Shown in pieces: positions 8,393-43,572 of a DNA stretch of 44,522 nucleotides (position 1 is its first letter; every line of letters begins with the position of its first letter). Origin of the DNA: an uncultured Ignavibacteriota bacterium (GTDB lineage: Bacteria > Bacteroidota > Ignavibacteria > UBA10030 > UBA8401); the NCBI GenBank assembly GCA_903958625.1, contig CAJBTU010000328.1, positions 1 to 44,522 of the forward strand. The letters are read 5' to 3'. The notes under the pieces were generated by a model that did no database searches, was not told the origin of the DNA, and saw only the letters and a program-made list of their open reading frames with translations. The position numbers and the translations under genes were made by a program.

Positions 8393-9478
8393 TTACTTTT
8401 TCAGTATGTCGAACAGTTTTTTATTGAAGTACAGTTTTTCCTTGCCCACTTTTTTACTCTTGAACACGCCGATGCGCTCTAATTCGTTCAGATAAACGCC
8501 GGCGGTTTTCTTCTTCACCAATTGTGCATCCTCCAGAAACTTCCGCTTGCAATACGGCTGACGGAAGATAACCTCCACTAACTCTTTGGAGTACATATCA
8601 GGCAGTTTCGCTTTTACTTCCTGCTCTGTCTTGTTTCGAAGGTCAATGATCGCATCGATCTTGTTCTGGGTATATAATGCCGTCTGTTCAACACCGTCAA
8701 GAACATACAGTATCCAGTCTTTCCAATCGTTCTTATCGGTTACGTTACGCAGACTGGTATAATATTTTGGTTTGTGATCCATAATGTATTTACTCAAATA
8801 CAAAATGGGAATTTCCAAAAGATTATTTTTCACCAGATAGAGAATGTTCAGTATGCGTCCTGTTCTTCCGTTGCCATCGGTGAACGGATGGATTGCTTCG
8901 AACTGGTAATGCATCACCGCCATCTTGATCAACGGATCGACCCCATCGTCATCCAGATTCACATACTGCTCCAAATTGTGCAGTAATTTTTTGATGACAT
9001 CCTCTCCCTCGGGGGGCGTATAGATTACTTCGCCGGTTTTATGATTGGCGATTTTTGTGCCGGTTGTTTTCCTGATGCCGGCATCCGTTTCTTTAATGAT
9101 GTTGCAGATGGAGACCATAAGATTCGTAGTGATGAGTCCGCGTTTTTTTACGGTCTGGAATCCCTGCCACAATGCTTCCTGATAGTGCAGCACTTCCTTG
9201 GTGTTGGGATCGGATATTTTTTTGTCCGATGCAAATGCCTGATACAACTCATCGTTCGTGGTGATGATGTTCTCGATTTCAGAACTGAGTTTTGCCTCAT
9301 GCAGAACAATGGAGTTAAGAAGTATTGATTGATTGGGGAGTTGTTTGCCCGAACCAACTAATTTCGCCAGAGCCTTGTTCGCCGTAATGGCTTTCTTAAG
9401 AACTTCTTTGGTCTCGATCTCTCCTTTTGGCGGCAGCAGAGGGAGATTGTTATAGGGAAGATTTTTGTTAAATGACAT
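8393..9478 (-). CDS. Fic family protein (ORF extends to 9547)
   Basis: Fic motif HPFTDGNGRTGR. N-terminal SSEIEN matches the (S/T)xxxE(G/N) inhibitory helix. C-terminal winged-helix-like tail. Confidence 0.92.
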   Translation of the reverse strand: MSFNKNLPYNNLPLLPPKGEIETKEVLKKAITANKALAKLVGSGKQLPNQSILLNSIVLHEAKLSSEIENIITTNDELYQAFASDKKISDPNTKEVLHYQEALWQGFQTVKKRGLITTNLMVSICNIIKETDAGIRKTTGTKIANHKTGEVIYTPPEGEDVIKKLLHNLEQYVNLDDDGVDPLIKMAVMHYQFEAIHPFTDGNGRTGRILNILYLVKNNLLEIPILYLSKYIMDHKPKYYTSLRNVTDKNDWKDWILYVLDGVEQTALYTQNKIDAIIDLRNKTEQEVKAKLPDMYSKELVEVIFRQPYCKRKFLEDAQLVKKKTAGVYLNELERIGVFKSKKVGKEKLYFNKKLFDILKK

Positions 9479-9707
9479 ATTGAGGGCTTTCAATGACCTT
9501 GTTTTTTGAACGAGGGCAATATAAGCATAATAATGCCCTCGTTGCAACTACGGGGGCATTGGGTACGCACGTGAAAAATCGGTTGTATTTATTACACTTT
9601 TACTCTCACCTCACTGACGTCCTCAATTATTTCAAGAAAACATTTGTATATGTGGTCATACAATTCAACAGTTCCCTCCCGCAAGTTATTCTTTGAGAAC
9701 TCAATAA

Positions 9708-27801: not shown

Positions 27802-30204
27802 CTAATGCTTCTTTCCCTCGATCGCTGCAATCTCGTTCAGCAGATCACGTTTTGTAAATCCCGATTTCTTCATCAGCGAAACCACGAATCCTTCCAGCTG
27901 TTCGCGGGTCTCATCATCGATCTCCATGGAGGTCATGATCATCACCGGAATTGTATATGTTGCCGAACTATGTTTCAATTGATAGGCAACGCTGAAGCCG
28001 GACATTTCCGGCATTACAAGGTCCAGAATAATCAGGTCCGGTTTTTCCTTTTCTGCCAGCACAAGTCCATCTTTGCCGTTATGCGCTTTGATCACCGTGC
28101 AGCCTTCAGCTTCCAGAATTATCTGGACAAGATCGGTAACCGACCGGTCATCGTCGATCACGAGAATCTTCGCAGAATTCTGCGCACTTCTTCCCTCCAC
28201 TTTTTTCACTGCAGCGATCAGATCATCTTTCTGCACCGGCTTCACAAAATATTCCACTGCGCCGAGACCAAACCCGACATTCCGTTCATCCACCATGGAG
28301 ATGATGATCACGGGAATCTCCCGGCAGAGCGGATGATCCTTCAGTTCCCGCAGCACCTGCCAGCCATCCTTCACCGGTATCAAAATATCGAGCGTGATCA
28401 CATCGGGTTTCCATAATTTCGCTTTTTCCAGCGCTTCTACTCCGTTCGTCGCTATCTCTACCATATAACCGGATTCCGTCAGATACGTGTGAAGCAGCGT
28501 GCGGGCATGCGGTTTATCTTCAACGATCAGCACCCTCTTTTGACGGCTACCGTCTGTGGTTTCCGAGATCTTTTTAAACACCTTCTCTGCCTCGTTCTCT
28601 ACCTGAACCATCATCGGAATTCGGGCAATGAATGTGCTTCCTTCACCGTATTCGCTCACAACAAACAGCGAACCGCCGTGCAGTTCCGTCAGTTTCTTGG
28701 TGATGGCAAGTCCAAGACCTGTTCCTTCGGTCTTCTTCGATCCCTGATCGGTCTGCTGGAACGGCTGGAACAATGATGTGATCTCTTCTTTGCGGATACC
28801 GACACCGAAATCCTGGACGGAAAATTCGATTTCGTTCTGCCTCCGTTTAGCAGAGATGATTACCTTCCCTTCTCCATGGCTGAACTTTATCGCATTCGTC
28901 ACAAGATTCAGCAGTATCTGTTTCATCCGCACGCCGTCTGCAATAATATCATCCAGTTCGCCATCCATGGATATCTCTAAAGAGATCTTCTTGGCTTCTA
29001 GCTGCGGCTGCACAACGTGCCTTACGCTGTCAAAAAGAGTGCGGATACCGACAGGAGCAAACCGGAGGTCCATTTTCCCGGCTTCGATCTTCGAAAGGTC
29101 CAAAATATCGTTGATAAGGTGGAGCAAATGTGTTCCGCTTGATTTGATCGCAGAGTTAAACTGTACCAGCGAATCGTGCTTTATTGCCGAGCCTTCTTCG
29201 GTGATCAGATCCGAAAATCCGATGATGGAGTTGAGCGGAGAGCGGAGTTCATGACTGAAAAAAGCCAAAAATCGTTTCAATTTTTCATGCGCTTCCATCG
29301 TTTGCGCACGCTGGATCTCAAGATCCACATTCTTTACGCGCAATTCATCGATCAAACCGCGGCGACTGACACCGACGGTAATCTCGCTTGCCAAAAGCGA
29401 AAGGAACGACAGTTCCTTCTCAACAAGTTCGCGCGAACTCTGGAGAAGGATCTCCAGCACGCCAAGTTTCTCTTTTTCAATACGAAGCGGAAGGGAGATG
29501 AGCGTTGTTACGGTCGAAGTGATCACCATTTCCGGTGCGAACGAGAACAATACGCTGCGCGCAAGATCGGTCGTAACTATCTTGTTCCCGGTGGAGAATG
29601 CCTCGATGCTGGAAAAGTTGGAATTGTTGGCAATCGAGAGTGCATAGATATTCTTCTGCAGATCGGTCAGCGGTAATTCCGGCGCCAGCAGTATCAATTG
29701 TTCGTCCGCCGGACGATGAAAATAGAGCAGAACATTCTGAGGAGGCAGTTCGTATCTTTTTGCGATCACACGGACCACTTCGGAACAGAGATCCTCCAAT
29801 TGACTTGCGGTATTGATCGCGTGAGAGATATCGAGTAGCGTCTCACGCTGGCGTTCTTCGATCTTCCGTTCGGTGATATCCGTTAGAAAAACGGACAAGC
29901 CGTTTTCATTTGGATAGATCCGGAAATCATACCACTTTTCCATTGTGAGATCTTTGGTATGATTTGTGGCGGTCTGGAAGGTGTTCGTTTCGATCGCAAG
30001 TTTGTATTTGATCCCGACATCGTGTTTTTCAAGGTTCGGAAAGATCTCGAAGATATTCTTTCCGATCACGTCGTTGCGTTTCCAATACGTTCCCTCTTCC
30101 GCCGCTTTGTTCCAATACGTGATGTTGAAATTTTTATCCAGAGCGAAAAATCCGCCGGAGATGCTTTCAAGTATTTCTTGTGAATTGAGATTGGGATGGG
30201 ACAT
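27802..30204 (-). CDS. Hybrid sensor histidine kinase: PAS, GAF-like region, HisKA, HATPase, two receiver domains (ORF extends to 30237)
   Basis: FSHELRSPLNSIIGFSD H-box, GTGLGLAITKKL, then receivers with PDVITLDILIPVKDGW and PDLIILDLVMPEMSGF phosphoacceptor Asp motifs. Confidence 0.94.
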   Translation of the reverse strand: MSHPNLNSQEILESISGGFFALDKNFNITYWNKAAEEGTYWKRNDVIGKNIFEIFPNLEKHDVGIKYKLAIETNTFQTATNHTKDLTMEKWYDFRIYPNENGLSVFLTDITERKIEERQRETLLDISHAINTASQLEDLCSEVVRVIAKRYELPPQNVLLYFHRPADEQLILLAPELPLTDLQKNIYALSIANNSNFSSIEAFSTGNKIVTTDLARSVLFSFAPEMVITSTVTTLISLPLRIEKEKLGVLEILLQSSRELVEKELSFLSLLASEITVGVSRRGLIDELRVKNVDLEIQRAQTMEAHEKLKRFLAFFSHELRSPLNSIIGFSDLITEEGSAIKHDSLVQFNSAIKSSGTHLLHLINDILDLSKIEAGKMDLRFAPVGIRTLFDSVRHVVQPQLEAKKISLEISMDGELDDIIADGVRMKQILLNLVTNAIKFSHGEGKVIISAKRRQNEIEFSVQDFGVGIRKEEITSLFQPFQQTDQGSKKTEGTGLGLAITKKLTELHGGSLFVVSEYGEGSTFIARIPMMVQVENEAEKVFKKISETTDGSRQKRVLIVEDKPHARTLLHTYLTESGYMVEIATNGVEALEKAKLWKPDVITLDILIPVKDGWQVLRELKDHPLCREIPVIIISMVDERNVGFGLGAVEYFVKPVQKDDLIAAVKKVEGRSAQNSAKILVIDDDRSVTDLVQIILEAEGCTVIKAHNGKDGLVLAEKEKPDLIILDLVMPEMSGFSVAYQLKHSSATYTIPVMIMTSMEIDDETREQLEGFVVSLMKKSGFTKRDLLNEIAAIEGKKH

Positions 30205-30223
30205 GCTGTAATGGGAAAAGTAA

Positions 30224-30270
30224 GATACCGGAAACATGATACTGGAATTTCCACTATCATGTTTCAGTAT
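30224..30270. repeat. Imperfect long inverted repeat upstream of the hybrid kinase
   Basis: GATACCGGAAACATGATACTGGAA-T-TTCCACTATCATGTTTCAGTAT. The inner arms match 11/12 (ATGATACTGGAA / TTCCACTATCAT). Confidence 0.7.
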
Positions 30271-30324: not shown

Positions 30325-30582
30325 TCATCGATTCAAGTGCGGAGGTTGAAATCCGCGGTATGTATCGAACTGTGAATCGTAAAAAACAAGATTAAAATTG
30401 CTGTCGCGTAATGTTCCGCCCGATGGATACAGATAGAATTCCGAAAGGTCCTCTGTTCTTGTCTTGGCAAGCAAACCGCCGGCCGTATAGAATTTTACCG
30501 TATAAAATCCCTGCGTGAACGGCGCTGTCTTCAATTGGCAGTGGAGATTCGCTTCAGTGAAAATGAAGATATCGTCGTTCAT
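30325..30582 (-). CDS. Small hypothetical protein overlapping the GroES-like gene end
   Basis: 85-aa ORF whose start overlaps the stop of the upstream gene. The FYTVKFYTAGGLLAKTRTEDLSEFYLYPSG beta-rich sequence looks like a real protein. Confidence 0.6.
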   Translation of the reverse strand: MNDDIFIFTEANLHCQLKTAPFTQGFYTVKFYTAGGLLAKTRTEDLSEFYLYPSGGTLRDSNFNLVFYDSQFDTYRGFQPPHLNR

Positions 30583-30977
30583 CCTCTCGCCGGCCCTATT
30601 CCCAGATCAGCAAGGGTGTCCGGACGCAGCAGCATCAGCAGATGCGATTGCTGAACGATCAAATATTGTTTCCCTTCGAATTCAATTTCGATCGCCGCAT
30701 CACGGAGAAACAACGCATAATCTCCCTCTTCCGCCTGCAACGGAATATATTTGACGGGATCCTTCGGCGCCGACCACGATTCCTGATCCATAAAATTCGG
30801 ATTGACCACCGGATACCCCGGACCCGCCTTGATGATATATCCCGCCTGCACTTTATCCTTTTCCTTCACACCGGGCGGAAGGTAGAGCCCGTGAGGTGTC
30901 TTTTCCTGTCCTTGATCAGGTTCGATCAGTATCCGGTCACCGACAAGGAATATTTTTTTCTTTAACGAAAGTGTCAT
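30579..30977 (-). CDS. GroES/Cpn10-like co-chaperone family protein (ORF extends to 31019)
   Basis: LVGDRILIEPDQGQEKTPHGLYLPPGVKEKDKVQAGYIIKAGPG. No groEL adjacent in the window. Confidence 0.8.
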   Translation of the reverse strand: MTLSLKKKIFLVGDRILIEPDQGQEKTPHGLYLPPGVKEKDKVQAGYIIKAGPGYPVVNPNFMDQESWSAPKDPVKYIPLQAEEGDYALFLRDAAIEIEFEGKQYLIVQQSHLLMLLRPDTLADLGIGPARG

Positions 30978-31123
30978 ACTGTTTGTGCACAAATATACGA
31001 AGTTTTTCTCTTTCTCCAACGACGAGCATTTATCATTTCTTAGAAAAGATACCGGTTGGACGCACCACGGCCCAACGCGGCTTGAATGTTACATCGGTTG
31101 AAAAAAGGAGAGAAAACCGGGGA

Positions 31124-32422
31124 TCACATTTGCAGTGTATGCATCTCCACGCCGACCGTTTTCAAAAATTCAAACGGCAATTCCCCTCCGGCAAAAATGA
31201 AGACGTAATCGTTAGGAATTTCGTTCTCTCCCCCGGGTGTGGAAAGGATAACGGAATTTTCCCGTATCTCCTTCACATCGGAACTGAAGATCACCGTGAG
31301 TTTTTTGTTCCGGGTGTATTCCTCGATATGCTGTTTATTGCGTTCTTTTATGCGGGTAAATTCCTCTTTCCGGTACGACAGCGTCACCGTGTTCCCTTTT
31401 TGAATAGCAAGACCAACGGCCGCTTCAATGGCTGAATCGCCTCCTCCTACCACCAGCAGATTGTTGTTGTTGAATTGCGACGCATCGATAAGTTTGTACA
31501 TCGCTTTCGACAATTCTTCTCCCGGCACGTTCAACTTCCGCGGGGTTCCGCGCCGTCCGAGGCCCAGCACAACCCTCGCCGCCGTCATCTTCCGCTGAGA
31601 CGTTGTCAGAATAAAATGACCGTTTGCTTTTTCCACCGAGAGGACCTTTTCGTTGATGGAGATGTTCAGGGAAGCGTGAGCGATAATCTTTTGCCACACT
31701 TCAAGCAGTGCTTCCTTTTTTACTTCCGTTAACTTCAACTTACCCCACAACGGCAATTCTACGGGAGATGTCATCACAACTTTTGCGCGCGGAAAATGCA
31801 GGATTGCGCCTCCTATATCGCTTTGCTCAATAATAATGGATTTCAGATTCAACGATTTCGCCATCAAGCCCGACGCCAAACCGGACGGACCAGCACCGAC
31901 GACAACAATATCATAATCGGCATTATGGGGAGATAATTTTGACGCGATATATTCTACGGCAGCCTTTCCTTGCGTAACCGCATTTTTAATCAAACCGATG
32001 CCGCCAAGTTCACCCACAATGAATACCCCGGGCACGCTTGTTTCATAATGTTCGTCGAGAACCGGAACACCGGCGCTGCGGCTTGGTTTTGCCGGAAGAA
32101 GCTCAATGGCACCGACCGGACAGGCATCGGCACATAATCCGTGTCCGACACATTTCGCTCCGTGTATCAGCGCCGCCTTCATATCAATGAGGGCGATGAC
32201 ATCACCTTCCGGACAAGCACCGACACAACCTCCGCATCCCAAACAATTGGTAATGTCAATATGCGGGTGCATTGTTGTTGCTTCGTGCAAACCGGTCACT
32301 TTCAGTTCCTGGAATTTTTTCCGCGCTTTCGCTTCCTTTTTTTTCACACTCCGTACATACGGAATGACGGTGATCGAAATCAGGAGCGTTGTAACAACCA
32401 GTGTAATAAGGGTTTCATTCAT
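31124..32422 (-). CDS. Membrane-anchored ferredoxin-like (2x[4Fe-4S]) / thioredoxin-reductase-like FAD-NAD(P) oxidoreductase
   Basis: N-terminal TM segment, CLGCGGCVGACPEGD and CVGHGLCADACPVGA clusters, DIVVVGAGPSGLASGLMAKSL FAD site, LLVVGGGDSAIEAAVGLA NAD(P) site, FIFAGGELPFEFL. Confidence 0.88.
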   Translation of the reverse strand: MNETLITLVVTTLLISITVIPYVRSVKKKEAKARKKFQELKVTGLHEATTMHPHIDITNCLGCGGCVGACPEGDVIALIDMKAALIHGAKCVGHGLCADACPVGAIELLPAKPSRSAGVPVLDEHYETSVPGVFIVGELGGIGLIKNAVTQGKAAVEYIASKLSPHNADYDIVVVGAGPSGLASGLMAKSLNLKSIIIEQSDIGGAILHFPRAKVVMTSPVELPLWGKLKLTEVKKEALLEVWQKIIAHASLNISINEKVLSVEKANGHFILTTSQRKMTAARVVLGLGRRGTPRKLNVPGEELSKAMYKLIDASQFNNNNLLVVGGGDSAIEAAVGLAIQKGNTVTLSYRKEEFTRIKERNKQHIEEYTRNKKLTVIFSSDVKEIRENSVILSTPGGENEIPNDYVFIFAGGELPFEFLKTVGVEMHTLQM

Positions 32423-32428
32423 AATGTT

Positions 32429-34054
32429 TTAAAATCGCATTCCGATTTCAGCAAAGACCCTGTAACTATTCATTGTAGTATCAAAAACACCGTCCATGGA
32501 AAGAGACGTATACCACATTTTCGAAAGACGGTAATAGAGATTGGCCGTTGCTGTTTGAGTTGTATACGTCTGCTTCAGGGAAACAATAGTGTATTGATAG
32601 TAATCGTAGCGCAGTGAGACCGACAGGGCATAAAAGAATGTCCGGTCGAAATCGACTGTATAATTATTCCCTTCCGAAAATTCACCGACAATGCGTGCAT
32701 AGCGGACGCCTGCATTGACATCCGAATTCAGGATATCGCTCATCCGCAGTGATGTACCCAAATTATACGCATCACGCGTATTTCCGCTGCGCGTGCGGTA
32801 CGTTCCATTGGTGGAGAGCGTAATGAAATACGGAAGTCGGAACGTGACGCTTCCGCGAAAACCCTGCAGGATATTCTTATCGAACAGTGTATCCGAGATG
32901 GTTTTCATGGATTCAAAAAGATACACGCTCCGCGATGCGTCGTACCCGATGCTTGTGGTAAGCCATTGCACGGGATAATAATTGACCGTGAAGAATGTGT
33001 TGGACAATCTTAATGCCCCTGTCCGCACTCCGTTCGTGATATCGTTCAGTTCAAGTTCCGTACTTTCGTACAAAGAAAGTTCGGGACCAAGTGACAATGA
33101 ATTTTGCAGATAGATGAATTCCCGGTCGAGTCTGGAACTGACCATCTGGCGTCCATAGGCGATCGTTCCATCAAACTGATGGAAGAAATCGATTCCCTGC
33201 CGGTAGTTCAGGAAGAACGATGCTTTGGTATCATTGGTATTTACCGAAAGAGAACGGTTGGAAACCTGCGCACCGCCCAGCACACCGGCAGTGAAATTAT
33301 CATACCGGTAGAACATCTGGAAACCGTCAAACGTCCCCATTCCGCCGACATAGCGGGATGTCATCCTGCCGAAACCATAACCATAGTCGGACCCGGCAAC
33401 ATCCCGCTGGACAGTGAATTCATAGATGCGATGATTCAATCCCGACGAACTTCCGTACATTGCATAGGCTTGTTTTGATTCGTAATAACTCCTGTCATAG
33501 AAGGAAAGCATCGCCCCTGTGCCGAAGAGATTCTGCACATCCAATCGAAGCACCGTTGAGGGCTGACTGACATTAAAACGTGAATTTTCTGCCGTGATGG
33601 AATTGTATTGTACACCGACCCTTCCGGAAACGATGTTCTCCGTGCTCTGAACAATAACCACCGCCGGTATTTTCATGGATGCTCCGGAAGAATCACGCTT
33701 AACCGAGGCGGCCGTATCCGTTTTTGCTTGTTCATTACCCGCTATGGTTTCAACAATCTCTTTTACGATCACCGCTTCATTCCCTACGGAAAATGGCGAT
33801 TTCTGTGAAACGATCTGAGCGGCGCTGGAACGACGCGAAACGGCGGTAACGGCCACAGAACCAATCTCTTTTCCTGCATTGTAAATTTTCAACGTATCTC
33901 CCACCTCAATGCGGCGTTCTCTTCCGGCATCAATATACACAACCGATGATGCGACATAGGAAATCGCAAAGCGAAGTTCTTTTTTTGTTTGGCTATTGCC
34001 AAAGGCCGCAAACAACGATGTAAATAAAATTATGGTAAGGAAAATCTTTCTCAT
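32429..34054 (-). CDS. Outer-membrane beta-barrel protein candidate with an N-terminal small beta domain
   Basis: Signal peptide, alternating amphipathic strands over the C-terminal ~370 aa, C-terminal aromatic ...RVFAEIGMRF. Embedded in a multiheme cytochrome operon. Confidence 0.7.
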   Translation of the reverse strand: MRKIFLTIILFTSLFAAFGNSQTKKELRFAISYVASSVVYIDAGRERRIEVGDTLKIYNAGKEIGSVAVTAVSRRSSAAQIVSQKSPFSVGNEAVIVKEIVETIAGNEQAKTDTAASVKRDSSGASMKIPAVVIVQSTENIVSGRVGVQYNSITAENSRFNVSQPSTVLRLDVQNLFGTGAMLSFYDRSYYESKQAYAMYGSSSGLNHRIYEFTVQRDVAGSDYGYGFGRMTSRYVGGMGTFDGFQMFYRYDNFTAGVLGGAQVSNRSLSVNTNDTKASFFLNYRQGIDFFHQFDGTIAYGRQMVSSRLDREFIYLQNSLSLGPELSLYESTELELNDITNGVRTGALRLSNTFFTVNYYPVQWLTTSIGYDASRSVYLFESMKTISDTLFDKNILQGFRGSVTFRLPYFITLSTNGTYRTRSGNTRDAYNLGTSLRMSDILNSDVNAGVRYARIVGEFSEGNNYTVDFDRTFFYALSVSLRYDYYQYTIVSLKQTYTTQTATANLYYRLSKMWYTSLSMDGVFDTTMNSYRVFAEIGMRF

Positions 34055-34060
34055 TGTATT

Positions 34061-34870
34061 TTATTCTGCCAGACCTTGGGGATGACACCGGTAACAGGCT
34101 TGACTTTGATAGCTGTAATTCCGGATACCACCGTGATGACTGTCCGTTGATGATTTGTTATGCTCATGACAATTGATGCACTCGAACAACTGATAATTCG
34201 ATTGTGTTGTATGACAATCCCCGCACGAATTCCACCTGCCCGGACGGTGTTTTGCACCGGTACCGATCGGAAAATTACTATGTGGAAACAATGCCGCCGG
34301 CTGCCACGTTAATGCACGGTGGCAGAATGCGCAATCGGTCGGGAACCTTGCCGTTTGATGATCCGGATTTCTTGTGGCAGCATATTCGGTTTGATGACAC
34401 GCGATACATTGCATTGGAGTTCCGCGAAAAATATTATTCATATGACACGATTTGCAGGCAACGGCTGCGTGAGCCCCGCGCGTAGGAAACTGAGTCATAT
34501 TATGGTCGAAATCAACCTGCCACGAAACGGCACTTTGCCGGTGACACTGACTGCATTCCGTACTGAATCCTGCCGTCCGGTGATTGATCGATATCGCCGC
34601 ATCATAATCGTTTTTATGACAGGAGATGCAGACCTTCGATAATCCAACAAACTTTAAGGTCGTGTGACAATTTCTGCAAGCGGTATTTCTATGCTGTCCT
34701 TCCAGAACATATCCGGCGGCAGCATGATTGAATTTCATCGGCAAAGAAAGTTCATTCCATCCTTCGGTCGAATGACAATCGCTGCAGATATAATTCAGCG
34801 GACCGTGCGGCGAATCCTGACCAAACAGTGCCGAGCTGACGGTGATCAGCAGAATGGAAATCACTCGCAT
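34061..34870 (-). CDS. Decaheme c-type cytochrome (10 CXXCH); caps shared with the 37-heme protein (ORF extends to 34900)
   Basis: 10 CXXCH motifs counted by reading. Signal peptide MRVISILLITVSSALFGQ. Organisation 2 + 2x3 + 2 hemes. Confidence 0.93.
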   Translation of the reverse strand: MRVISILLITVSSALFGQDSPHGPLNYICSDCHSTEGWNELSLPMKFNHAAAGYVLEGQHRNTACRNCHTTLKFVGLSKVCISCHKNDYDAAISINHRTAGFSTECSQCHRQSAVSWQVDFDHNMTQFPTRGAHAAVACKSCHMNNIFRGTPMQCIACHQTEYAATRNPDHQTARFPTDCAFCHRALTWQPAALFPHSNFPIGTGAKHRPGRWNSCGDCHTTQSNYQLFECINCHEHNKSSTDSHHGGIRNYSYQSQACYRCHPQGLAE

Positions 34871-34872
34871 CA

Positions 34873-37671
34873 CTATAAGGTCCTGCCTGTCGGGTGACAT
34901 TTATAGCACGCGGCGCTTGAATACAAATACCCCGTGCGTCCTCGGTGTTCCGAATCCATGCTCGCTTTGTCGTGTTCGTGACAATTGATACATTCGAACA
35001 CTTTGGAATTCGTCGGATTTGTATGACAATCGCTGCACAAAGTCCACCGGCCCGGTCTGTGTTTTGCCGACGCATCGATCGGGAAAAACGGCGTATGATT
35101 GAATGTTGACGGTTTCCATAACGACGTCGTGTGACACGATTTGCAATCTGTCGGATACTTTGCCGCAGCATGGTTCGGATTGACCGCGGTATTATAGTCT
35201 TGAGTATGGCATGTATAACAATCCGTCGGCGTTCCTGCAAATTTTCCGCCGACATGACAATTTGCGCATGGTGCAGAAACGTGTGATCCCGTCAGCGGGA
35301 AGATGGTTTTATTATGATCAAACATCGCCGGACTCCAGCCATTCATCGAATGACAGCTGGTACAGTTATGGTCAAAATTACCCGTAACGTGATTGGGATC
35401 TGCCGCGCTGTTAAAATCGGACAAATGACAGGTATAACAGACCGTTGTTGTTCCTTTATACTGTCCGTTCTTGTGGCAATCTGAACATAACACCGCAGCG
35501 TGGGAACCCTGCAGCGGAAAGCTCGTATTCGCATGGTTGAATGTTGACGGTTTCCAAGCAATGTTCGAATGACACGTTAAACAATCGTGCGAAAATTGTG
35601 CTGTAACATGGTTTGGATTTGTTGTGCCGGTAAAATTGTTCATATGGCAGGAATAACAATCGGACGGTAATCCTTTGTAAACACCGCTCGAATGGCACGA
35701 CACACAAGACGCAGAAACGTGAGCGCCGATCAGCGGATAGTTTGTGCCGGCGTGGTTGAATGTCGACGGTTTCCAGGCAATGTTCGAATGACACGTTAAA
35801 CAATCGTGCGAGAATTGTGCCGACACGTGATTCGGATTTGTTGTGCCGGTAAAGTTGCTCATATGACAACTGAAACAATCGGATGGCAGTCCTTTATACA
35901 CCCCGTTTTTATGACAATCACTGCAAATAACAGCACCGTGTGCACCAACCAGCGGAAAGTTTGTTGCTGCGTGATTGAATGTTGAAGGTTTCCACGCCAT
36001 CGTATTATGACATGATAAACAGTCATGCGAAAATTGCGCTGCGGCATGATTTGGATTTACTGTTGTGATGAATGAATTTTGATGACAACTGTAACAATCG
36101 GACGGTAATCCCTTAAACACACCGTTCTTATGGCACGATTCGCACGCAATAGTTACGTGAGCTCCAACAAGCTGAAAATTGGTCTTTGCGTGACTGAATG
36201 TAGACGGTTTCCAAGCATTCATCGAATGACATGTTAAACAATCACGGCTGAATTGCGCGACGGCATGATTTGGGGCAACAGTTTTTGCAAAATCCTGCTG
36301 ATGGCATGAGTAACAGTCGCTCGGCAAACCGATGAATTTACCGGAGGTATGACACGAGGCGCAATTGGTAGCCGCGTGAGCACCAATAAGCGGAAAATTT
36401 GTCTTGGCATGATCGAATGTCGATGGTTTCCACCCGTTCATGGAATGGCATGAGACACAATCCTGACTAATGAGCGCCGTTTGATGATTCGGCGAAGTTG
36501 TCTTTTTATAATCAACCTGATGGCAGGTGAAGCATTCGGTATTTAATCCTTTATAAATACCGGCGGAATGACACGAAGCGCAATCGGTGTTTTTATGAAC
36601 ACCAAGGAGCGGATAATTCGTCTTCGCATGATCAAACGTGGAGGGTTTCCATGCGAGCAGATTGTGACAGGTAAGACAGTTACGATCGAACTGCGCTTTA
36701 AGATGGCTTGGTTGCTTAACATCATTGAAATCTTTTGTATGACAGGTAAAACAATCTTTCGTCAATCCTTTAAACTGTCCTGTGCTATGGCAGGAAGAAC
36801 ATTCCGTTGCCATGTGGGCGCCGGCCAGCGCAAAATCCGTTTTGCCGTGATCGAATGTCGAAGGTTTCCAGCCGTTGATGGTATGGCACGTCAGGCAGTC
36901 GCGGGAAAATTTTCCTGTGGAATGATTCGGCGCAGTTGTCTTTGCAAAATCCTTCTGATGACAGGAATAACAATCGGACGGAAGAACGGTGTATTTGCCG
37001 CCGGCATGACAACCGGAACAATCAACCGACCGGTGTGCGCCGGCCAGCGGGAAATTGGTCTTCGCATGATCGAATGTTGCCGGCTTCCATCCGTTCATTG
37101 TATGACACGTTAAGCACGAATGAGTAAAGCGGCCCTGCACGTGGTTTGGTGCAACGGCATTGGTAAAATCCTTTTGATGGCAGAAAAAACATTCGTGTGA
37201 AAGTCCGGTAAATTTATTGTTGGCATGACATGATGCGCAATCGACGCTTTGATGAGCGCCGATCAGCTGAAAATCAGTCTTGGAATGTTGGAAGATTGAC
37301 GGCTTCCATGCATTGAGCGTATGACAGGTAAGACATTCGCGGGAGAATTTCCCTAATTGATGATTTGGTGTAAACGCCCGGACAAAATCCTTTTGATGAC
37401 AGGAGAAGCACGCCGTCGGTGTTCCGGAAAATTTTTTTGCCGTATGGCACTGAATGCACGCAACATTGCTATGCTGACCGTCCAATGCAAAGCCGGTCAC
37501 CACGTGACTGAATTTCATCGGACGGGCCAATTCCTTCCACGAATCGGTCGTATGACAATCCGTACAGGCGATGGAAAGCGGCCCGTGAGGAGATTTCTGA
37601 GCGTTGCCGTACGAAAGAAATATTACATTCAAAGCCAGAATAATGATCGTATGGAAGGCGATCCTTTTCAT
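34873..37671 (-). CDS. Giant 37-heme c-type cytochrome built from 11 triheme modules (ORF extends to 37698)
   Basis: 37 CXXCH motifs counted by reading. Signal peptide MKRIAFHTIIILALNVIFLSYGNAQ. Organisation 2 + 11x3 + 2 hemes. Start overlaps the upstream stop (ATGA). Confidence 0.95.
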   Translation of the reverse strand: MKRIAFHTIIILALNVIFLSYGNAQKSPHGPLSIACTDCHTTDSWKELARPMKFSHVVTGFALDGQHSNVACIQCHTAKKFSGTPTACFSCHQKDFVRAFTPNHQLGKFSRECLTCHTLNAWKPSIFQHSKTDFQLIGAHQSVDCASCHANNKFTGLSHECFFCHQKDFTNAVAPNHVQGRFTHSCLTCHTMNGWKPATFDHAKTNFPLAGAHRSVDCSGCHAGGKYTVLPSDCYSCHQKDFAKTTAPNHSTGKFSRDCLTCHTINGWKPSTFDHGKTDFALAGAHMATECSSCHSTGQFKGLTKDCFTCHTKDFNDVKQPSHLKAQFDRNCLTCHNLLAWKPSTFDHAKTNYPLLGVHKNTDCASCHSAGIYKGLNTECFTCHQVDYKKTTSPNHQTALISQDCVSCHSMNGWKPSTFDHAKTNFPLIGAHAATNCASCHTSGKFIGLPSDCYSCHQQDFAKTVAPNHAVAQFSRDCLTCHSMNAWKPSTFSHAKTNFQLVGAHVTIACESCHKNGVFKGLPSDCYSCHQNSFITTVNPNHAAAQFSHDCLSCHNTMAWKPSTFNHAATNFPLVGAHGAVICSDCHKNGVYKGLPSDCFSCHMSNFTGTTNPNHVSAQFSHDCLTCHSNIAWKPSTFNHAGTNYPLIGAHVSASCVSCHSSGVYKGLPSDCYSCHMNNFTGTTNPNHVTAQFSHDCLTCHSNIAWKPSTFNHANTSFPLQGSHAAVLCSDCHKNGQYKGTTTVCYTCHLSDFNSAADPNHVTGNFDHNCTSCHSMNGWSPAMFDHNKTIFPLTGSHVSAPCANCHVGGKFAGTPTDCYTCHTQDYNTAVNPNHAAAKYPTDCKSCHTTSLWKPSTFNHTPFFPIDASAKHRPGRWTLCSDCHTNPTNSKVFECINCHEHDKASMDSEHRGRTGYLYSSAACYKCHPTGRTL
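34993..37410 (-). repeat. In-gene tandem array of 11 triheme-encoding units (219 bp each, final unit 228 bp)
   Basis: Unit CxxCHxxDF...PNH...FSRDCLTCHxxxxWKPSTFxHxKTxFPLxGAH...CxxCHxxGxxxGLPSD is 73 aa in the modules counted. At DNA level ATGTTCGAATGACACGTTAAACAATCGTGCG recurs 219 bp apart (about 35561 and 35780). Confidence 0.92.
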
Positions 37672-39308
37672 TGCTTGTCCGTATGACAGTCTGTGCATAA
37701 AAGCCCCAGTGGTTTATATTTGGTGATCTTCCGCCCATTGACGGTATATTGTGCATGACACTTCATGCATTGCACTCCGGCGTGCTTGCCCGTTAAAGCA
37801 AAACGGGCTTCGGTATCATGATTAAACGTTACCTTTTTCCAGGATACCGAGCTATGACATTTTTCACAATTCGTTACGGCATTCACGGCAAATTGACCAT
37901 CATGTTCATCGGTATGACATGAGGTACATTCTTTGCGAACAGCAGTGTATTTTACCGGCGTGCCGTCCGTTGTTTTTTTGTGGCATTGATCGCATCGAAC
38001 TTCAGCATGTTTACCCTGCAACGGAAAGGTTGTTTTGTCGTGAGAAAAAAGAAGTTTATCCCAGGCTGAAACTGTATGGCACGTTTCGCACCCTTTGGTC
38101 ATTATCTTTGCAAATTGGCCCTTGTGAATATCTTCATGGCAAGTGATGCATTCTATTGATCCATCCCAGTGGAATTTACGAGTGCTCTTTGCTTTCACTG
38201 CACCGCCGGTATGGCAGGCTACGCAGGGAATGGCCGTATGAGCGCCGGCCAGCGGAAACCGCGTAGTTTGGTGCTGCTGATAAGCGAAACGGACAATGGT
38301 AAATCCTTCTTCCGTATGGCACGATTCGCACTTTCCTTTATCAGCACGATATAAGAACTGCAGTGCATGAGCATCGGCATGGCAGTTCGCACACACCTGA
38401 AATTTTGTGATACGGTGACCAAGTTCTCCGCTAGCGTTCAAGCTTTTGGGATTATTGTTGTGACATTGTTCGCACTTCAACTGAGCATGCTTCCCTTTCA
38501 GCGGATATTGCGTGGACGCATGATCGAACTGTCCTTTTGAGATCTTATGAAAATCCTCCGTGGAGTGACATGCATTGCACTCCTGTTTGAACTTACCCTT
38601 ATGCGGATCGACGTGACAATTGCTGCACGAGGAGAATTCCATTTTTACAAATCGGACTGTCTTACCATCACCAAGCATTTTGTTGTGACACTTCATACAT
38701 TCCGTTTTTTTATGACTCCCCGTCAGCGGATAATTCGTCCGGTCATGGGAGAACTTGAGAACGGCCTTCCACTGGTCGATGGTATGACACGATGAACATT
38801 CCCGTCCGGCAAACTGACCTTTATGCTTATCCTCATGGCACGAAGAACAATTTGCCGACAATCCCATGAATGTTCTTTTCTTATACTCGTCCGCTAATTT
38901 CTGCACGTCCGGCGCCGCAATGCGCTCTTTGTTGTGACAATCCCTGCATTCAATTTTTTTATGCTTCCCTTCCAGAACAAATCCCACGGTGGAATGATCG
39001 AATGTTTTCGTATCGAACCGAATGATCTGAAAATTCCGTCCGTGATGTTCCTTGTGGCACTCTTCGCACAACTTTGCACCGATGGTCGCGTGAAATCCTT
39101 TTTTCTGTTTCATCCTTCCATTGATCTCTTTATGACAATCCAGGCATCGTTCGTTTGAAAGGGACTTCCCCACGGAATGGCATTTCGTGCAGTTCTCGAC
39201 TCCTTCCAGGTCCTTATGGGCATTCGTCAAATCACCGGGGGAAATTTGCGCAAACGCGTACGTTGACAAAAGGACGAACAAAGCGATATTGACGAAACAA
39301 CGGAGCAT
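37668..39308 (-). CDS. 20-heme c-type cytochrome
   Basis: 20 CXXCH motifs counted by reading. Signal peptide MLRCFVNIALFVLLSTYAFAQ. Repeated CxxCHxDxHKGQF...CxxCH...FxHDxTxYPLxGKH...CxxCH modules. Confidence 0.94.
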   Translation of the reverse strand: MLRCFVNIALFVLLSTYAFAQISPGDLTNAHKDLEGVENCTKCHSVGKSLSNERCLDCHKEINGRMKQKKGFHATIGAKLCEECHKEHHGRNFQIIRFDTKTFDHSTVGFVLEGKHKKIECRDCHNKERIAAPDVQKLADEYKKRTFMGLSANCSSCHEDKHKGQFAGRECSSCHTIDQWKAVLKFSHDRTNYPLTGSHKKTECMKCHNKMLGDGKTVRFVKMEFSSCSNCHVDPHKGKFKQECNACHSTEDFHKISKGQFDHASTQYPLKGKHAQLKCEQCHNNNPKSLNASGELGHRITKFQVCANCHADAHALQFLYRADKGKCESCHTEEGFTIVRFAYQQHQTTRFPLAGAHTAIPCVACHTGGAVKAKSTRKFHWDGSIECITCHEDIHKGQFAKIMTKGCETCHTVSAWDKLLFSHDKTTFPLQGKHAEVRCDQCHKKTTDGTPVKYTAVRKECTSCHTDEHDGQFAVNAVTNCEKCHSSVSWKKVTFNHDTEARFALTGKHAGVQCMKCHAQYTVNGRKITKYKPLGLLCTDCHTDKQ

Positions 39309-39907
39309 TATTCCATTTTCCCTAACTGTTTGAGTGCATCAACGGCATTCTTTGCTTCATGGCTTTCCGGTGCGACCAGTATCAGTTTTTTCCATGTCTG
39401 TTCGGCTTCTTTCCGTTTCCCCTGTCGGGCATAAATGGCTCCCTTATTATAGAGAGCGGTTGAATTCTTCGGGTCTTTGGTGAGCAGAACATTGGTGATT
39501 TTCATGGCTTCATCAATATTGCCTGTTTGAGCATAGCAAACGCTCAGATCTAAAAGAACTGATGAGTTCACCGGTTCCAACTTACGTGCCCGTTCAAAAT
39601 ATTGGATCGCCTCTTTGGGATTATGCCCATCCATCAACATGGAGGCAAGCATCGTGAGATGCGAAAGATTTTTAGGATCTTTATCGACCGATTTTTTCAA
39701 AGCGTCGAGCTGTTGTGAATACTCCTTGGCAACATTTCCTTTGCCCGGTGCCTGGGGCTGACCGGCAGGAAATTCTTTGTCCGTCTTTTCGGGCTGTTCG
39801 GAATTCTTCAGCATCCTTCCGCTGTCGCGTGTGAGAACAAAAACGATCGCGGCGATGAGGATAAAGGGAAAAATAAGTCTGCGGGACCAGATGATCAATG
39901 TTTTCAT
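39308..39907 (-). CDS. Membrane-anchored tetratricopeptide repeat protein (ORF extends to 40072)
   Basis: N-terminal TM (RRLIFPFILIAAIVFVLT) followed by TPRs (AIQYFERARKLEPVNSSVLLDLSVCYAQTGNIDEAM). Confidence 0.85.
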   Translation of the reverse strand: MKTLIIWSRRLIFPFILIAAIVFVLTRDSGRMLKNSEQPEKTDKEFPAGQPQAPGKGNVAKEYSQQLDALKKSVDKDPKNLSHLTMLASMLMDGHNPKEAIQYFERARKLEPVNSSVLLDLSVCYAQTGNIDEAMKITNVLLTKDPKNSTALYNKGAIYARQGKRKEAEQTWKKLILVAPESHEAKNAVDALKQLGKME

Positions 39908-39908
39908 A

Positions 39909-40787
39909 TCAGAATATCCAAGTATAGCCGAACGTGATAGCAACGCCCACATGCACCAGCAAGACAACAAACATGATAATGCTGAAGGGTAAGTGAATAA
40001 CATGCCAATAATGGAAAATCTCCTGAACTTTTTCCAGCACGGCAATGCGCTGCTGAAAAACAATATGGTCATTCACAATAGCAACGACCTTTTTCATTGA
40101 ATGCTTATCGACAGAATATTTATTCAGCGTATTTTTGATCAGCATAATTCTACGCTTTTGCGAAAGATCGCTGATCAAAAGATACCATAGAAGGGTGAAT
40201 AATCCTGCCTCATCGATATGCGCCATCGGTTTCCCCAATTCACGAAGAGCTTTCACCGCCTGCTCGTTCAGCGCATAGGTTGAATGAAGCGAATCAAGCA
40301 TCATCTTTCCTTTTTCTTCAAGTTCTTTCGCACTTAATTCATTTCCTTCGATATTCTTCGGTATATGCTGATACAAATACCGACCAAGCACACCGCTAAA
40401 CGCAACAGCGGACATGCTCCAGAAACTCACCGCCACCAATCCGCCGAACTTGAACGTGGTATGATATAACACCAACACCGGTCCGATCAGACAGAGAAAA
40501 ATATGGAACTCGAGAAAATATTTGATCTTTCCGATCTGCCTGAATGCACGGACTCTCTTTCGGCTGGAATACATGATCACACCGATCGTGACCATTGCGG
40601 TTCCGATGATACCATATCCGTGACTTTCTATACCGGAAGGTTTAAGATCGTTATACCGTTCATGAAACGGCCTTTCCTCCATCGGCAGGAAATAGTATTC
40701 TACATTTCTGGCAAGAACAGCTACCGCTATCAAAATCCCGAACAATATTAGAAAGGAAAGAAATAAGCGATGGGAAAGTTGATTCAT
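39909..40787 (-). CDS. Diheme b-type cytochrome integral membrane protein (ORF extends to 40814)
   Basis: Multiple TM helices and two Hx13H pairs (HIFLCLIGPVLVLYH and HLPFSIIMFVVLLVH), the spacing expected for bis-His ligation of two b hemes. First gene of the cytochrome operon. Confidence 0.75.
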   Translation of the reverse strand: MNQLSHRLFLSFLILFGILIAVAVLARNVEYYFLPMEERPFHERYNDLKPSGIESHGYGIIGTAMVTIGVIMYSSRKRVRAFRQIGKIKYFLEFHIFLCLIGPVLVLYHTTFKFGGLVAVSFWSMSAVAFSGVLGRYLYQHIPKNIEGNELSAKELEEKGKMMLDSLHSTYALNEQAVKALRELGKPMAHIDEAGLFTLLWYLLISDLSQKRRIMLIKNTLNKYSVDKHSMKKVVAIVNDHIVFQQRIAVLEKVQEIFHYWHVIHLPFSIIMFVVLLVHVGVAITFGYTWIF

Positions 40788-41427: not shown

Positions 41428-43572
41428 CTATTTCATCAGCAACATTTTCCTGGTTTCAACTAAATTTTTGCCGGAGGTCTGTTGCGATACTGCTTCTAAA
41501 CGGTAGAAATAAATACCGGACGGCATCTGAGAAGCGTTGAATGAATATTCATACACTCCGGCATCGATAATTCCATTTTCTACGGTTGATACTAATTGTC
41601 CCAAAGCGTTATAGACCGTCAACATTACAGCACTTCTCTCGGTGACACTGAAACTGATGGTTGTTGAGGGATTGAACGGATTAGGATAATTTTGTTCCAA
41701 TGCGAACTTTGAAGGAGTGGATGAAGATCGTTTCGTTTCGTCCTTGACAGACAATGAAACATTTCTTAACCATAGCGAATAGAGGGTAAGGTTTGTCGTT
41801 GCAGAATATGCCGCTCCGGTTGCATACGACGTTCCCGAACCATTAGGATTTGTATTCCATCCATTAAAGGTATATCCGCTTCTCACCATCGTGCCTGGAC
41901 CCAATATGGTCGTTGCAGTGGTAAAAGTTCCTCCGGCCGGTACAGTTCCGCCGGTATATTTATACCCAACATACGTTATAGTATATTGGCCGCCAGCAAG
42001 GGCAGTAAAGATAGGAATTAGTGTAACATTATTACTCGGCATTAAGAACGTGTAAGGATTGCTTGTCGAAGCCTGTCCTGATCCGCCGACCGCATAATCC
42101 CACCGTGTAAACGTATACCCGGCATTTGGCATTGCTGTCAGTGTCACTGATGTTCCTACGGGATACGAGTCTCCATAAATTGTTCCGCCGCTGACAGAAC
42201 CGCTTGAGGATGCATTGACTTTCAAAACGTACAAGTTATCAATGCTTCCTTCCATCGCTCCGCGGTTTGGGGGATCGAGTCTGGCTGCACCTACTTGATC
42301 AAGCAGTACTTCCTGGCCAGCCGCGCTTGTTCCAGTAAGATTCACATAGCTGGTCCCGTTCCAATATGCAACAACAGGAGTAACATTATTATTATTGGCA
42401 AACCGTGTGCGGGTTCCTTTGTTGCTGAAAACAAAGCTTCCACTTTTCAATGTGGGTGCCACCGTACCGGTGTTAGAATAGAGTAACGGACGGAATATTT
42501 GTTCGCCGATCTCCAATCCACCGGCATCCGTAATTTTCGCCAACACTCCCCCCGAAAATATTGTATTGTTGCTTCCACTGATTGCACCCGTGTACAACAC
42601 GTTGCTTGCTGTAGCTCCAATCCCTGCCGGAACAGCGGCATGAAGGATAGAATAATAGACCGATACACCAGCTTGACCGGTATACGCAACAATATCATCT
42701 AGAACAAAACCCGTCGGATTTGTAACGGTTCCCGTTGTTCTGCGATAATTGTGAGCGAGAAGTGAGTTTACAATTTTTACTGTACCATTATTATTACCAA
42801 TGGCTCCTCCCGAGTAATTTCCATAGGCCACATTACCGGTAGCGCTGCTGTTGATGAACCATACAGTTGAGCCAAGATTATTAATCGCACCGCCGATTTC
42901 CGTGCTTTGATTATTGGAGAGGGTCGAATTATTAAAATATATTACCGCGGCGTTGTTATTTTCAACGGCGCCACCACCGCCGCCGCTCGAGGTTGACCGG
43001 TTTTCGATCAACGTGCTGGATTCAAAATACGCCCGTGCCGCCGATCCGCTATTCAATAATCCACCGCCATACGAGGCGGCGTTGCGCTTGATGAAACTAT
43101 TATTCAGATAAAGAATCCCTACATTATAAATTCCGCCGCCGCTTGCGGCACTCGAATTCGAAATAATGCAGTTATTTAGAATGAGAGTTCCCGAATTAAT
43201 AATAGTTCCTCCGCTCCCCAACACTGCTCCACCCTTAAGACTCAGATTATTTAGGGTCACAATTTTGCTGACCGTGGTGATCGAAAATACATTGAACGCC
43301 GATGGAGTAGAATTCACTCTTCCCATTTCATCCAATCCGGGACGAGGAACAGTGATCAAGCAATCATTTCCCTTAAAGATTAATGTTTTATTGATGGTGA
43401 TTGGCGCCGTAACAACAATATCACCGACGATATTGATGATATCACCATCCACGGACGCGATGATCGCCGCTGCCAGTTCGGCATACGTACCAGCGTTCCG
43501 GGTGGTGGCAAAAGATTGATGCGAGATCAACAGAAAGAGTAATGATACGAAGAGGTACAGATTATTTTTCAT
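41428..43572 (-). CDS. T9SS-sorted right-handed beta-helix-like protein with InlB-type B-repeats
   Basis: Signal peptide. GGGIYNVGILYLNNSFIKRNAASYGGGLLNSG repeats, SGYTFNGWNTNPNGSGTSY InlB B-repeat, and C-terminal FALEQNYPNPFNPSTTISFSV...LVETRKMLLMK type A sorting domain. Confidence 0.9.
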   Translation of the reverse strand: MKNNLYLFVSLLFLLISHQSFATTRNAGTYAELAAAIIASVDGDIINIVGDIVVTAPITINKTLIFKGNDCLITVPRPGLDEMGRVNSTPSAFNVFSITTVSKIVTLNNLSLKGGAVLGSGGTIINSGTLILNNCIISNSSAASGGGIYNVGILYLNNSFIKRNAASYGGGLLNSGSAARAYFESSTLIENRSTSSGGGGGAVENNNAAVIYFNNSTLSNNQSTEIGGAINNLGSTVWFINSSATGNVAYGNYSGGAIGNNNGTVKIVNSLLAHNYRRTTGTVTNPTGFVLDDIVAYTGQAGVSVYYSILHAAVPAGIGATASNVLYTGAISGSNNTIFSGGVLAKITDAGGLEIGEQIFRPLLYSNTGTVAPTLKSGSFVFSNKGTRTRFANNNNVTPVVAYWNGTSYVNLTGTSAAGQEVLLDQVGAARLDPPNRGAMEGSIDNLYVLKVNASSSGSVSGGTIYGDSYPVGTSVTLTAMPNAGYTFTRWDYAVGGSGQASTSNPYTFLMPSNNVTLIPIFTALAGGQYTITYVGYKYTGGTVPAGGTFTTATTILGPGTMVRSGYTFNGWNTNPNGSGTSYATGAAYSATTNLTLYSLWLRNVSLSVKDETKRSSSTPSKFALEQNYPNPFNPSTTISFSVTERSAVMLTVYNALGQLVSTVENGIIDAGVYEYSFNASQMPSGIYFYRLEAVSQQTSGKNLVETRKMLLMK

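Follow-up and report, generated by a model that had tools for sequence, protein, structure and literature searches.

Contig CAJBTU010000328.1 of an uncultured Ignavibacteriota bacterium (assembly GCA_903958625.1; 44,522 nt, in the following the window) contains a group of seven genes which, as we argue here, may encode a conduit for electrons across the cell envelope. According to the open reading frames (ORFs) called in the window, the genes lie on the minus strand between positions 31124 and 40787 and overlap or nearly touch each other (Table 1). An ATGA is common to C20 and C37 and a TAATG to TPR and C20, while the remaining gaps measure 1–6 nt. The three c-type cytochromes C20, C37 and C10 have 20, 37 and 10 CXXCH motifs, respectively. 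The initial annotation of this stretch had described a compact seven-gene operon with 67 c-type hemes in three proteins; ORFs, overlaps and CXXCH counts were all confirmed, the recounted total being exactly 67. Each of C20, C37, C10 and the barrel candidate BARR starts with a single N-terminal hydrophobic segment, consistent with a signal peptide, and one N-terminal transmembrane (TM) segment is present in both TPR and the flavo-Fe-S protein, named FAD.

Table 1. The seven-gene operon. Strand and coordinates are window positions; the starts of CYTB, TPR, C37 and C10 were refined by signal peptides and spacing.
Gene	Product	Position	Strand	Remarks
CYTB	five-TM diheme b-type cytochrome	39909..40787	-	292 aa; no CXXCH; start refined
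TPR	membrane-anchored TPR protein	39308..39907	-	199 aa; start refined
C20	20-heme c-type cytochrome	37668..39308	-	546 aa; signal peptide
C37	37-heme c-type cytochrome	34873..37668	-	931 aa from internal ATG; signal peptide
C10	10-heme cytochrome, short C37 paralogue	34061..34870	-	269 aa from internal ATG
BARR	outer-membrane barrel (predicted)	32429..34054	-	signal peptide; 22 predicted transmembrane strands
FAD	Fe-S/FAD/NAD(P) oxidoreductase	31124..32422	-	N-terminal TM anchor; two Fe-S motifs

CYTB has four strong TM segments and a weaker one (approx. residues 52–72). Two histidine pairs, the partners 13 residues apart, lie on TM3 (H94/H108) and TM5 (H264/H278) and are invariant; the SGXXG motif on TM4 (S130-G131-x-x-G134) and an R75-K76-R77 loop are conserved. 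Following the positive-inside rule, the RKR loop would face the cytoplasm, as would presumably an insert of about 110 residues between TM4 and TM5. Both HX13H pairs and SGXXG are kept in 21/21 members of the family. Two full WX3HX13H motifs occur in 13 of them, and the other eight, including the window protein, retain only that of TM5, the tryptophan on TM3 having been lost. No curated family was matched by CYTB, but weak matches to DUF4405 and to prokaryotic cytochrome b561 recur among the members; in Pfam, these weak hits were DUF4405 (10/21 members) and Ni_hydr_CYTB (4/21).

The FAD protein combines two Fe-S motifs, C60-C63-C66-C70P and C91-xx-H94-xx-C97-xxx-C101P, with a YpdA/TrxR-like flavoprotein part, in which the glycine motifs for FAD (GAGPxG) and NAD(P) (GGGDSA...YR) show no or almost no variation among 21 sequences. 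In the second Fe-S motif (residues 91–101, C-x2-H-x2-C-x3-CP), the histidine at a usual cysteine position is invariant in 21 relatives, which suggests a His-ligated or a 3Fe cluster. In the first motif, serine replaces one cysteine in 9/21 sequences. Split over two polypeptides, FAD and CYTB thus contain the motif set of NOX/ferric reductase (NOX/FRE)-like enzymes, i.e., NAD(P)H and FAD sites and a two-heme b domain with HX13H pairs. Judged by these motifs, the pair may resemble NAD(P)H-dependent transmembrane reductases in mechanism, not in family.

C37 is strictly periodic. Between constant N- and C-terminal ends, it consists of 11 tandem units of 73 aa with three hemes each (heme spacings 16-25-32), and neighbouring modules are 45–81% identical at the protein level. 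C10 has the same end motifs but fewer modules and, because of these common ends, the two proteins can be viewed as a single design in a short and a long version. Histidines outside the motifs exceed the hemes in all three cytochromes (46/37 in C37, 12/10 in C10, 24/20 in C20), which fits the requirement for bis-His ligation. Among relatives, the length of C20-type proteins is fixed (57 with 20 hemes, 17 with 23). The large cytochrome varies from 10 to 85 hemes at 24–31 residues per heme, its ends being conserved while the middle expands. Its heme number equals 3n+1 in 57 of 70 cases (p ~ 2e-16 against an expectation of 1/3, indicative only, as the proteins are related). The version with 85 CXXCH, from a Bacteroidetes metagenome-assembled genome (MAG; locus L115), matches the maximum given by He et al. 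(2017). Neither C37 nor C20 matched a PDB entry at 1e-3, and a profile of the C37 module matched high-molecular-weight, sixteen-heme and nine-heme cytochromes weakly; an assignment to solved nanowires was, therefore, rejected. We presume that C20 is a wire spanning the periplasm and C37 a wire at the outer membrane or surface; C10 is a candidate for a plug through the barrel.

Structure prediction of BARR returned a small beta domain (residues 24–99) followed by 22 strands (142–540), with a mean pLDDT of 75, so that the outer-membrane barrel proposed in the initial annotation is indeed predicted as such. When this model was searched with Foldseek, the barrels of FimD, AlgE and Occ were found at low TM-scores, most probably reflecting the barrel fold and not kinship. 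No match above cut-off to MtrB/PioB or to any Pfam or NCBIfam barrel was obtained. Second BARR copies are present in three genomes (G018, G028, G112), hinting at duplicated conduits. TPR scores above the cut-off of the CcmH/CycH TPR family and is a probable helper in apocytochrome handling or heme loading. Its homologue stands next to CYTB in only some relatives, making it an optional part.

The strongest evidence for a functional unit comes from recurrence. Strong CYTB and BARR matches were counted in a class-wide sample of 149 genomes. CYTB was found in 36 of these and BARR accompanied it in 35, compared to 0/113 of the other genomes (Fisher p ~ 2e-33, again indicative given the relatedness of the genomes); the sole CYTB genome without a strong BARR is 79% complete. 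At all 20 loci fetched, CYTB is joined by FAD, a large cytochrome of variable size and the 20-heme cytochrome, which is split in two at L052. BARR is present in 18 of them; at L039 and L051, the contig stops before its position. In public data, at least 552 loci encode CYTB relatives. Nearly all of the best 80 of these are labelled Bacteroidota (Ignavibacteria, Bacteroidales, Saprospiraceae, Maribacter sp. PR1), and 38 of the 80 extend 9.5 kb downstream of CYTB. In these 38 long loci, FAD is the most constant partner of CYTB (38), followed by the C20-type protein (36), the large cytochrome (35) and BARR (33). The commonest gene order is CYTB-FAD-C20-cX-BARR (20 loci), the FAD-last order of the window being in the minority. 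Since the genes are syntenic in relatives, we conclude that the set is a real unit, far beyond chance; the homologues do co-occur across genomes, a check that the initial annotation had asked for. A match labelled Thermoanaerobaculia was not accepted as a further phylum, as a search within the phylum of that genome gave the same Bacteroidota genomes, and the record is probably mislabelled.

Outside the block, no neighbour is common to most loci, and conserved iron-uptake genes were not found around it. As read from their sequences, sensor-kinase-like proteins are encoded near 14 loci, and CcsBA-like assembly proteins near five. Cultured strains are among the carriers. Plasmid pEMTOL02 of Emticicia oligotrophica DSM 17448 (L135, 7830–19628) encodes the complete set, its cytochromes having 23 and 40 hemes and its FAD protein and CYTB bearing the locus tags EMTOL_RS21090/21095, and Maribacter sp. 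PR1 (L099) has CYTB-FAD-C23-C25-BARR. The lineages of both strains are usually considered aerobic. On pEMTOL02, the conduit genes directly follow a CcsBA-type cytochrome c assembly gene, and the conduit may thus travel with its own maturation factor. The genome to which the window belongs encodes two heme-copper oxidases and cytochrome c assembly genes; no MtrB was found in it.

Searches in plasmids yielded distant CYTB homologues (hhalign probability 99.3, E 7e-21), which adjoin an FNR-type protein containing FAD, NAD and 2Fe-2S/Fer2 domains and, mostly, a 7-heme c3 cytochrome matching the N-terminal half of C20. These compact operons of FNR-type flavoprotein, cytochrome b and c3 (L136, L137, L139, L140, L141) were seen on plasmids of Alteromonas, Bradyrhizobium, Methylophaga and Qipengyuania, all Proteobacteria, and of Spirosoma (Bacteroidota). 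Some lie near zwf-gnd-tal, hydrogenase or copper-resistance genes; in Bradyrhizobium BTAi1, zwf, gnd and tal accompany the trio. Apparently, they form an uncharacterised module transferring electrons from NAD(P)H to the periplasm. They have in common with the operon in the window a homologous cytochrome b, a C20-related c3 and an NAD(P)-binding flavo-Fe-S partner. However, the flavoprotein is of the FNR/Fer2 type in the plasmid operons and YpdA-like with Fer4 in the window, and neither a barrel nor a giant cytochrome of the C37 type was found beside the plasmid trios.

Taken together, we regard the operon as probably coding for an electron conduit across the envelope that belongs to the PCC3 type, an architectural class of porin-cytochrome complexes, and has its own entry for electrons from cytoplasmic NAD(P)H. 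The conduit as such is well supported by the genes, their motifs, synteny and the barrel prediction, whereas we infer the topology, the electron path, NAD(P)H as donor, the outward direction and the acceptor. A path from NAD(P)H via flavin, Fe-S, b and c hemes is suggested because no other neighbour of CYTB is as constant as FAD and because the plasmid operons join FNR, b and c3. At the cytoplasmic side, NAD(P)H would be oxidised on the flavin of the membrane-anchored FAD protein, and the two Fe-S clusters of this protein would relay the electrons to the five-helix CYTB, whose heme nearer the cytoplasm would accept them. From the second b-heme they would move to C20, whose fixed length would span the periplasm, and further to C37 and C10, threaded into or docked on the 22-strand barrel, and so to the outside. 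TPR would probably aid heme loading. As the large cytochrome appears to gain length in complete 3-heme modules while its ends stay constant, its reach and charge storage could be tunable. Fe(III), humics, electrodes, other cells or O2 are candidate acceptors. The low potential of NAD(P)H (-320 mV) and a membrane potential that favours electron exit speak, on grounds of general bioenergetics, for outward flow. More tentatively, and as something we hold plausible without calling it probable, Bacteroidota as a phylum might export electrons from cytoplasmic NAD(P)H via flavo-Fe-S protein and diheme b cytochrome, bypassing the quinone pool, with a modular surface wire evolving by 3-heme units.

Export from NAD(P)H would not conserve energy by itself, and redox balancing and respiration are thus equally plausible purposes. 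With the same parts, the operon could follow the logic of NOX and ferric reductases and serve as a non-respiratory surface sink for NAD(P)H, balancing redox state, reducing iron(III) for uptake or reducing extracellular oxidants. The presence of the set in Emticicia and Maribacter and the pentose-phosphate genes adjoining distant relatives speak for this role, but 67 hemes are costly for reducing iron prior to uptake and the block lacks conserved iron-uptake neighbours; on balance we find it rather doubtful. A different electron entry follows from the model of He et al. (PMC5566968), in which the PCC3 inner-membrane protein is linked to quinones and electrons go to the quinone pool. CYTB would then exchange electrons with menaquinol, as a respiratory exit or an entry from Fe(II), and FAD would be a side input. 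The rest of the gene set does match PCC3, and diheme b proteins with a similar motif pattern include quinol enzymes. Nevertheless, FAD is found beside CYTB at every long locus, more constantly than any other partner, and the related compact operons join the same b family to an FNR-type NAD(P)H reductase, which makes a quinone-linked role of CYTB unlikely.

The initial annotation had left open whether electrons leave the cell or are taken up from an external donor. Its conduit is borne out by synteny, co-occurrence and barrel prediction, but uptake appears less likely on energetic grounds. For uptake, a flavoprotein reducing NAD(P)+ or ferredoxin would have to be supplied by Fe(II), by Fe(0) or by other cells. 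The potential of NAD(P)H, however, is below that of most extracellular donors, the membrane potential would oppose inward flow, and a coupling partner is not among the encoded proteins. Even considering that PCC3 is found in iron oxidisers (PMC5566968), that the flavoprotein could run backwards and that multiheme wires conduct both ways, we regard uptake as improbable. Least likely, and in our view highly improbable, is a mere electron store in the periplasm with BARR as an unrelated porin. Very large heme numbers would suit a capacitor, a role speculated for the giant cytochromes of Saprospiraceae (PMC11495043); however, BARR lies in the same operon and co-occurs with CYTB almost perfectly.

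Several points weigh against a NAD(P)H-fed conduit of the PCC3 type. Besides the quinone-linked role suggested by He et al., BARR and the PCC3 porins (up to 42 strands) were compared by description and not by sequence, CXXCH-rich proteins inflate similarity scores, and most homologues stem from MAGs. The structure model of CYTB is poor (one 58-residue helix) and has no PDB match. Furthermore, some carriers from usually aerobic lineages and the two heme-copper oxidases in the genome of the window make the physiological need less evident. If the conduit does operate as proposed, a broad part of the Bacteroidota, cultured strains included, may exchange electrons with the outside. PCC3 has been known from sequence since 2017 without a demonstrated electron entry, and a flavoprotein at every long locus makes this question directly testable. 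In addition, the fixed, presumably periplasmic and the variable, presumably surface-exposed cytochromes provide a natural series for studying wire length versus conduction.

As to the surroundings in the window, approximately 0.6 kb separate CYTB from the next upstream gene (41428–43572), which encodes a secreted protein with the tail of the type IX secretion system, InlB-type repeats and Listeria-Bacteroides repeats. Behind the operon, on the same strand, follow a GroES-like ORF (30579–31019), 104 nt past FAD, and a hybrid histidine kinase (27802–30237); ORFs of similar size are seen behind the operon at a locus of the same genus (L033). A Fic/DOC family protein with a SoFic-like C-terminal domain is encoded at 8393–9547.

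Among known systems, MtrCAB, MtoAB and PioAB also bridge the outer membrane by a barrel and multiheme cytochromes. Membership of the operon was rejected, as neither BARR nor the genome has an MtrB_PioB match. Unlike in these systems, no match to the decaheme MtrA/MtrC families above cut-off was obtained in the operon; C20 reached 56 bits with TIGR03508 (MtrA/DmsE family; cut-off 192) and C10 had no match. The Geobacter systems OmbB-OmaB-OmcB, Ext, CbcL and ImcH follow a similar outer-membrane conduit logic, CbcL with an inner-membrane b cytochrome. However, heme counts differ from 20, 37 and 10 in OmbB-OmaB-OmcB (OmaB 8, OmcB 12), the similarity of C20 to ExtN/ExtO is only local and scores far below cut-off, and a CbcL-type fusion of b and multiheme c domains was dismissed because CYTB contains no CXXCH. 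The distinctness from MtrCAB and CbcL proposed in the initial annotation is thereby supported, and profile searches gave no family match to a characterised pathway other than extracellular electron transfer. OmbB-like and MtrB complexes have been reported in Ignavibacteria (PMC7399161), and the former might be the operon family described here. Likewise, an uncharacterised Bacteroidetes cluster on an anode, with a barrel, several multiheme cytochromes and relatives in Ignavibacteriae (PMC8258643), could be a related locus. The available portions of that report and of the one on giant, very heme-rich Saprospiraceae cytochromes (PMC11495043) describe no set linked to cytochrome b and a flavoprotein. 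A literature search of limited scope found no account of exactly this operon, where absence is not proof.

The closest likeness is to PCC3, described from Proteobacteria such as Sideroxydans and Leptothrix (He et al., 2017; PMC5566968). PCC3 comprises a porin, an extracellular multiheme cytochrome (median 34 hemes, up to 85), a periplasmic one (median 21) and an inner-membrane protein of about 300 aa with five TM segments, SGXXG on TM4 and two WX3HX13H motifs (TM3, TM5). SGXXG and the HX13H pairs are the signature of the inner-membrane protein in PCC3 and PCC4, which the authors likened to NOX/ferric reductase and cytochrome b for PCC3. The cytochromes are repeat-built with 22–39 residues per heme (PMC5566968). 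The set recurs in Gallionellaceae with 21–27 and 10–35 hemes (PMC10734462), and a further paper still describes its function as untested (PMC12442390). Our operon has the same four kinds of component, as far as their cellular locations can be assigned from sequence; CYTB agrees in size, TM number, SGXXG and the HX13H pairs, and the cytochromes of the operon family are likewise heme-dense and repeat-built. Consequently, the layout, which the initial annotation could not name, can be corrected to that of PCC3: cytochrome b, a cytochrome of about 20 hemes, a very large repeat cytochrome and a porin. The operon fits this type by layout and motifs as published. In contrast to PCC3, the family occurs in Bacteroidota, CYTB comes first with the barrel at or near the end, BARR has 22 strands, and an Fe-S/FAD/NAD(P) oxidoreductase and sometimes TPR are added. 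The membrane-bound oxidoreductase stressed in the initial annotation does stand out in this comparison: the linked flavoprotein, present in 38/38 long loci, and the phylum-wide spread in Bacteroidota are new beyond PCC3 as described.

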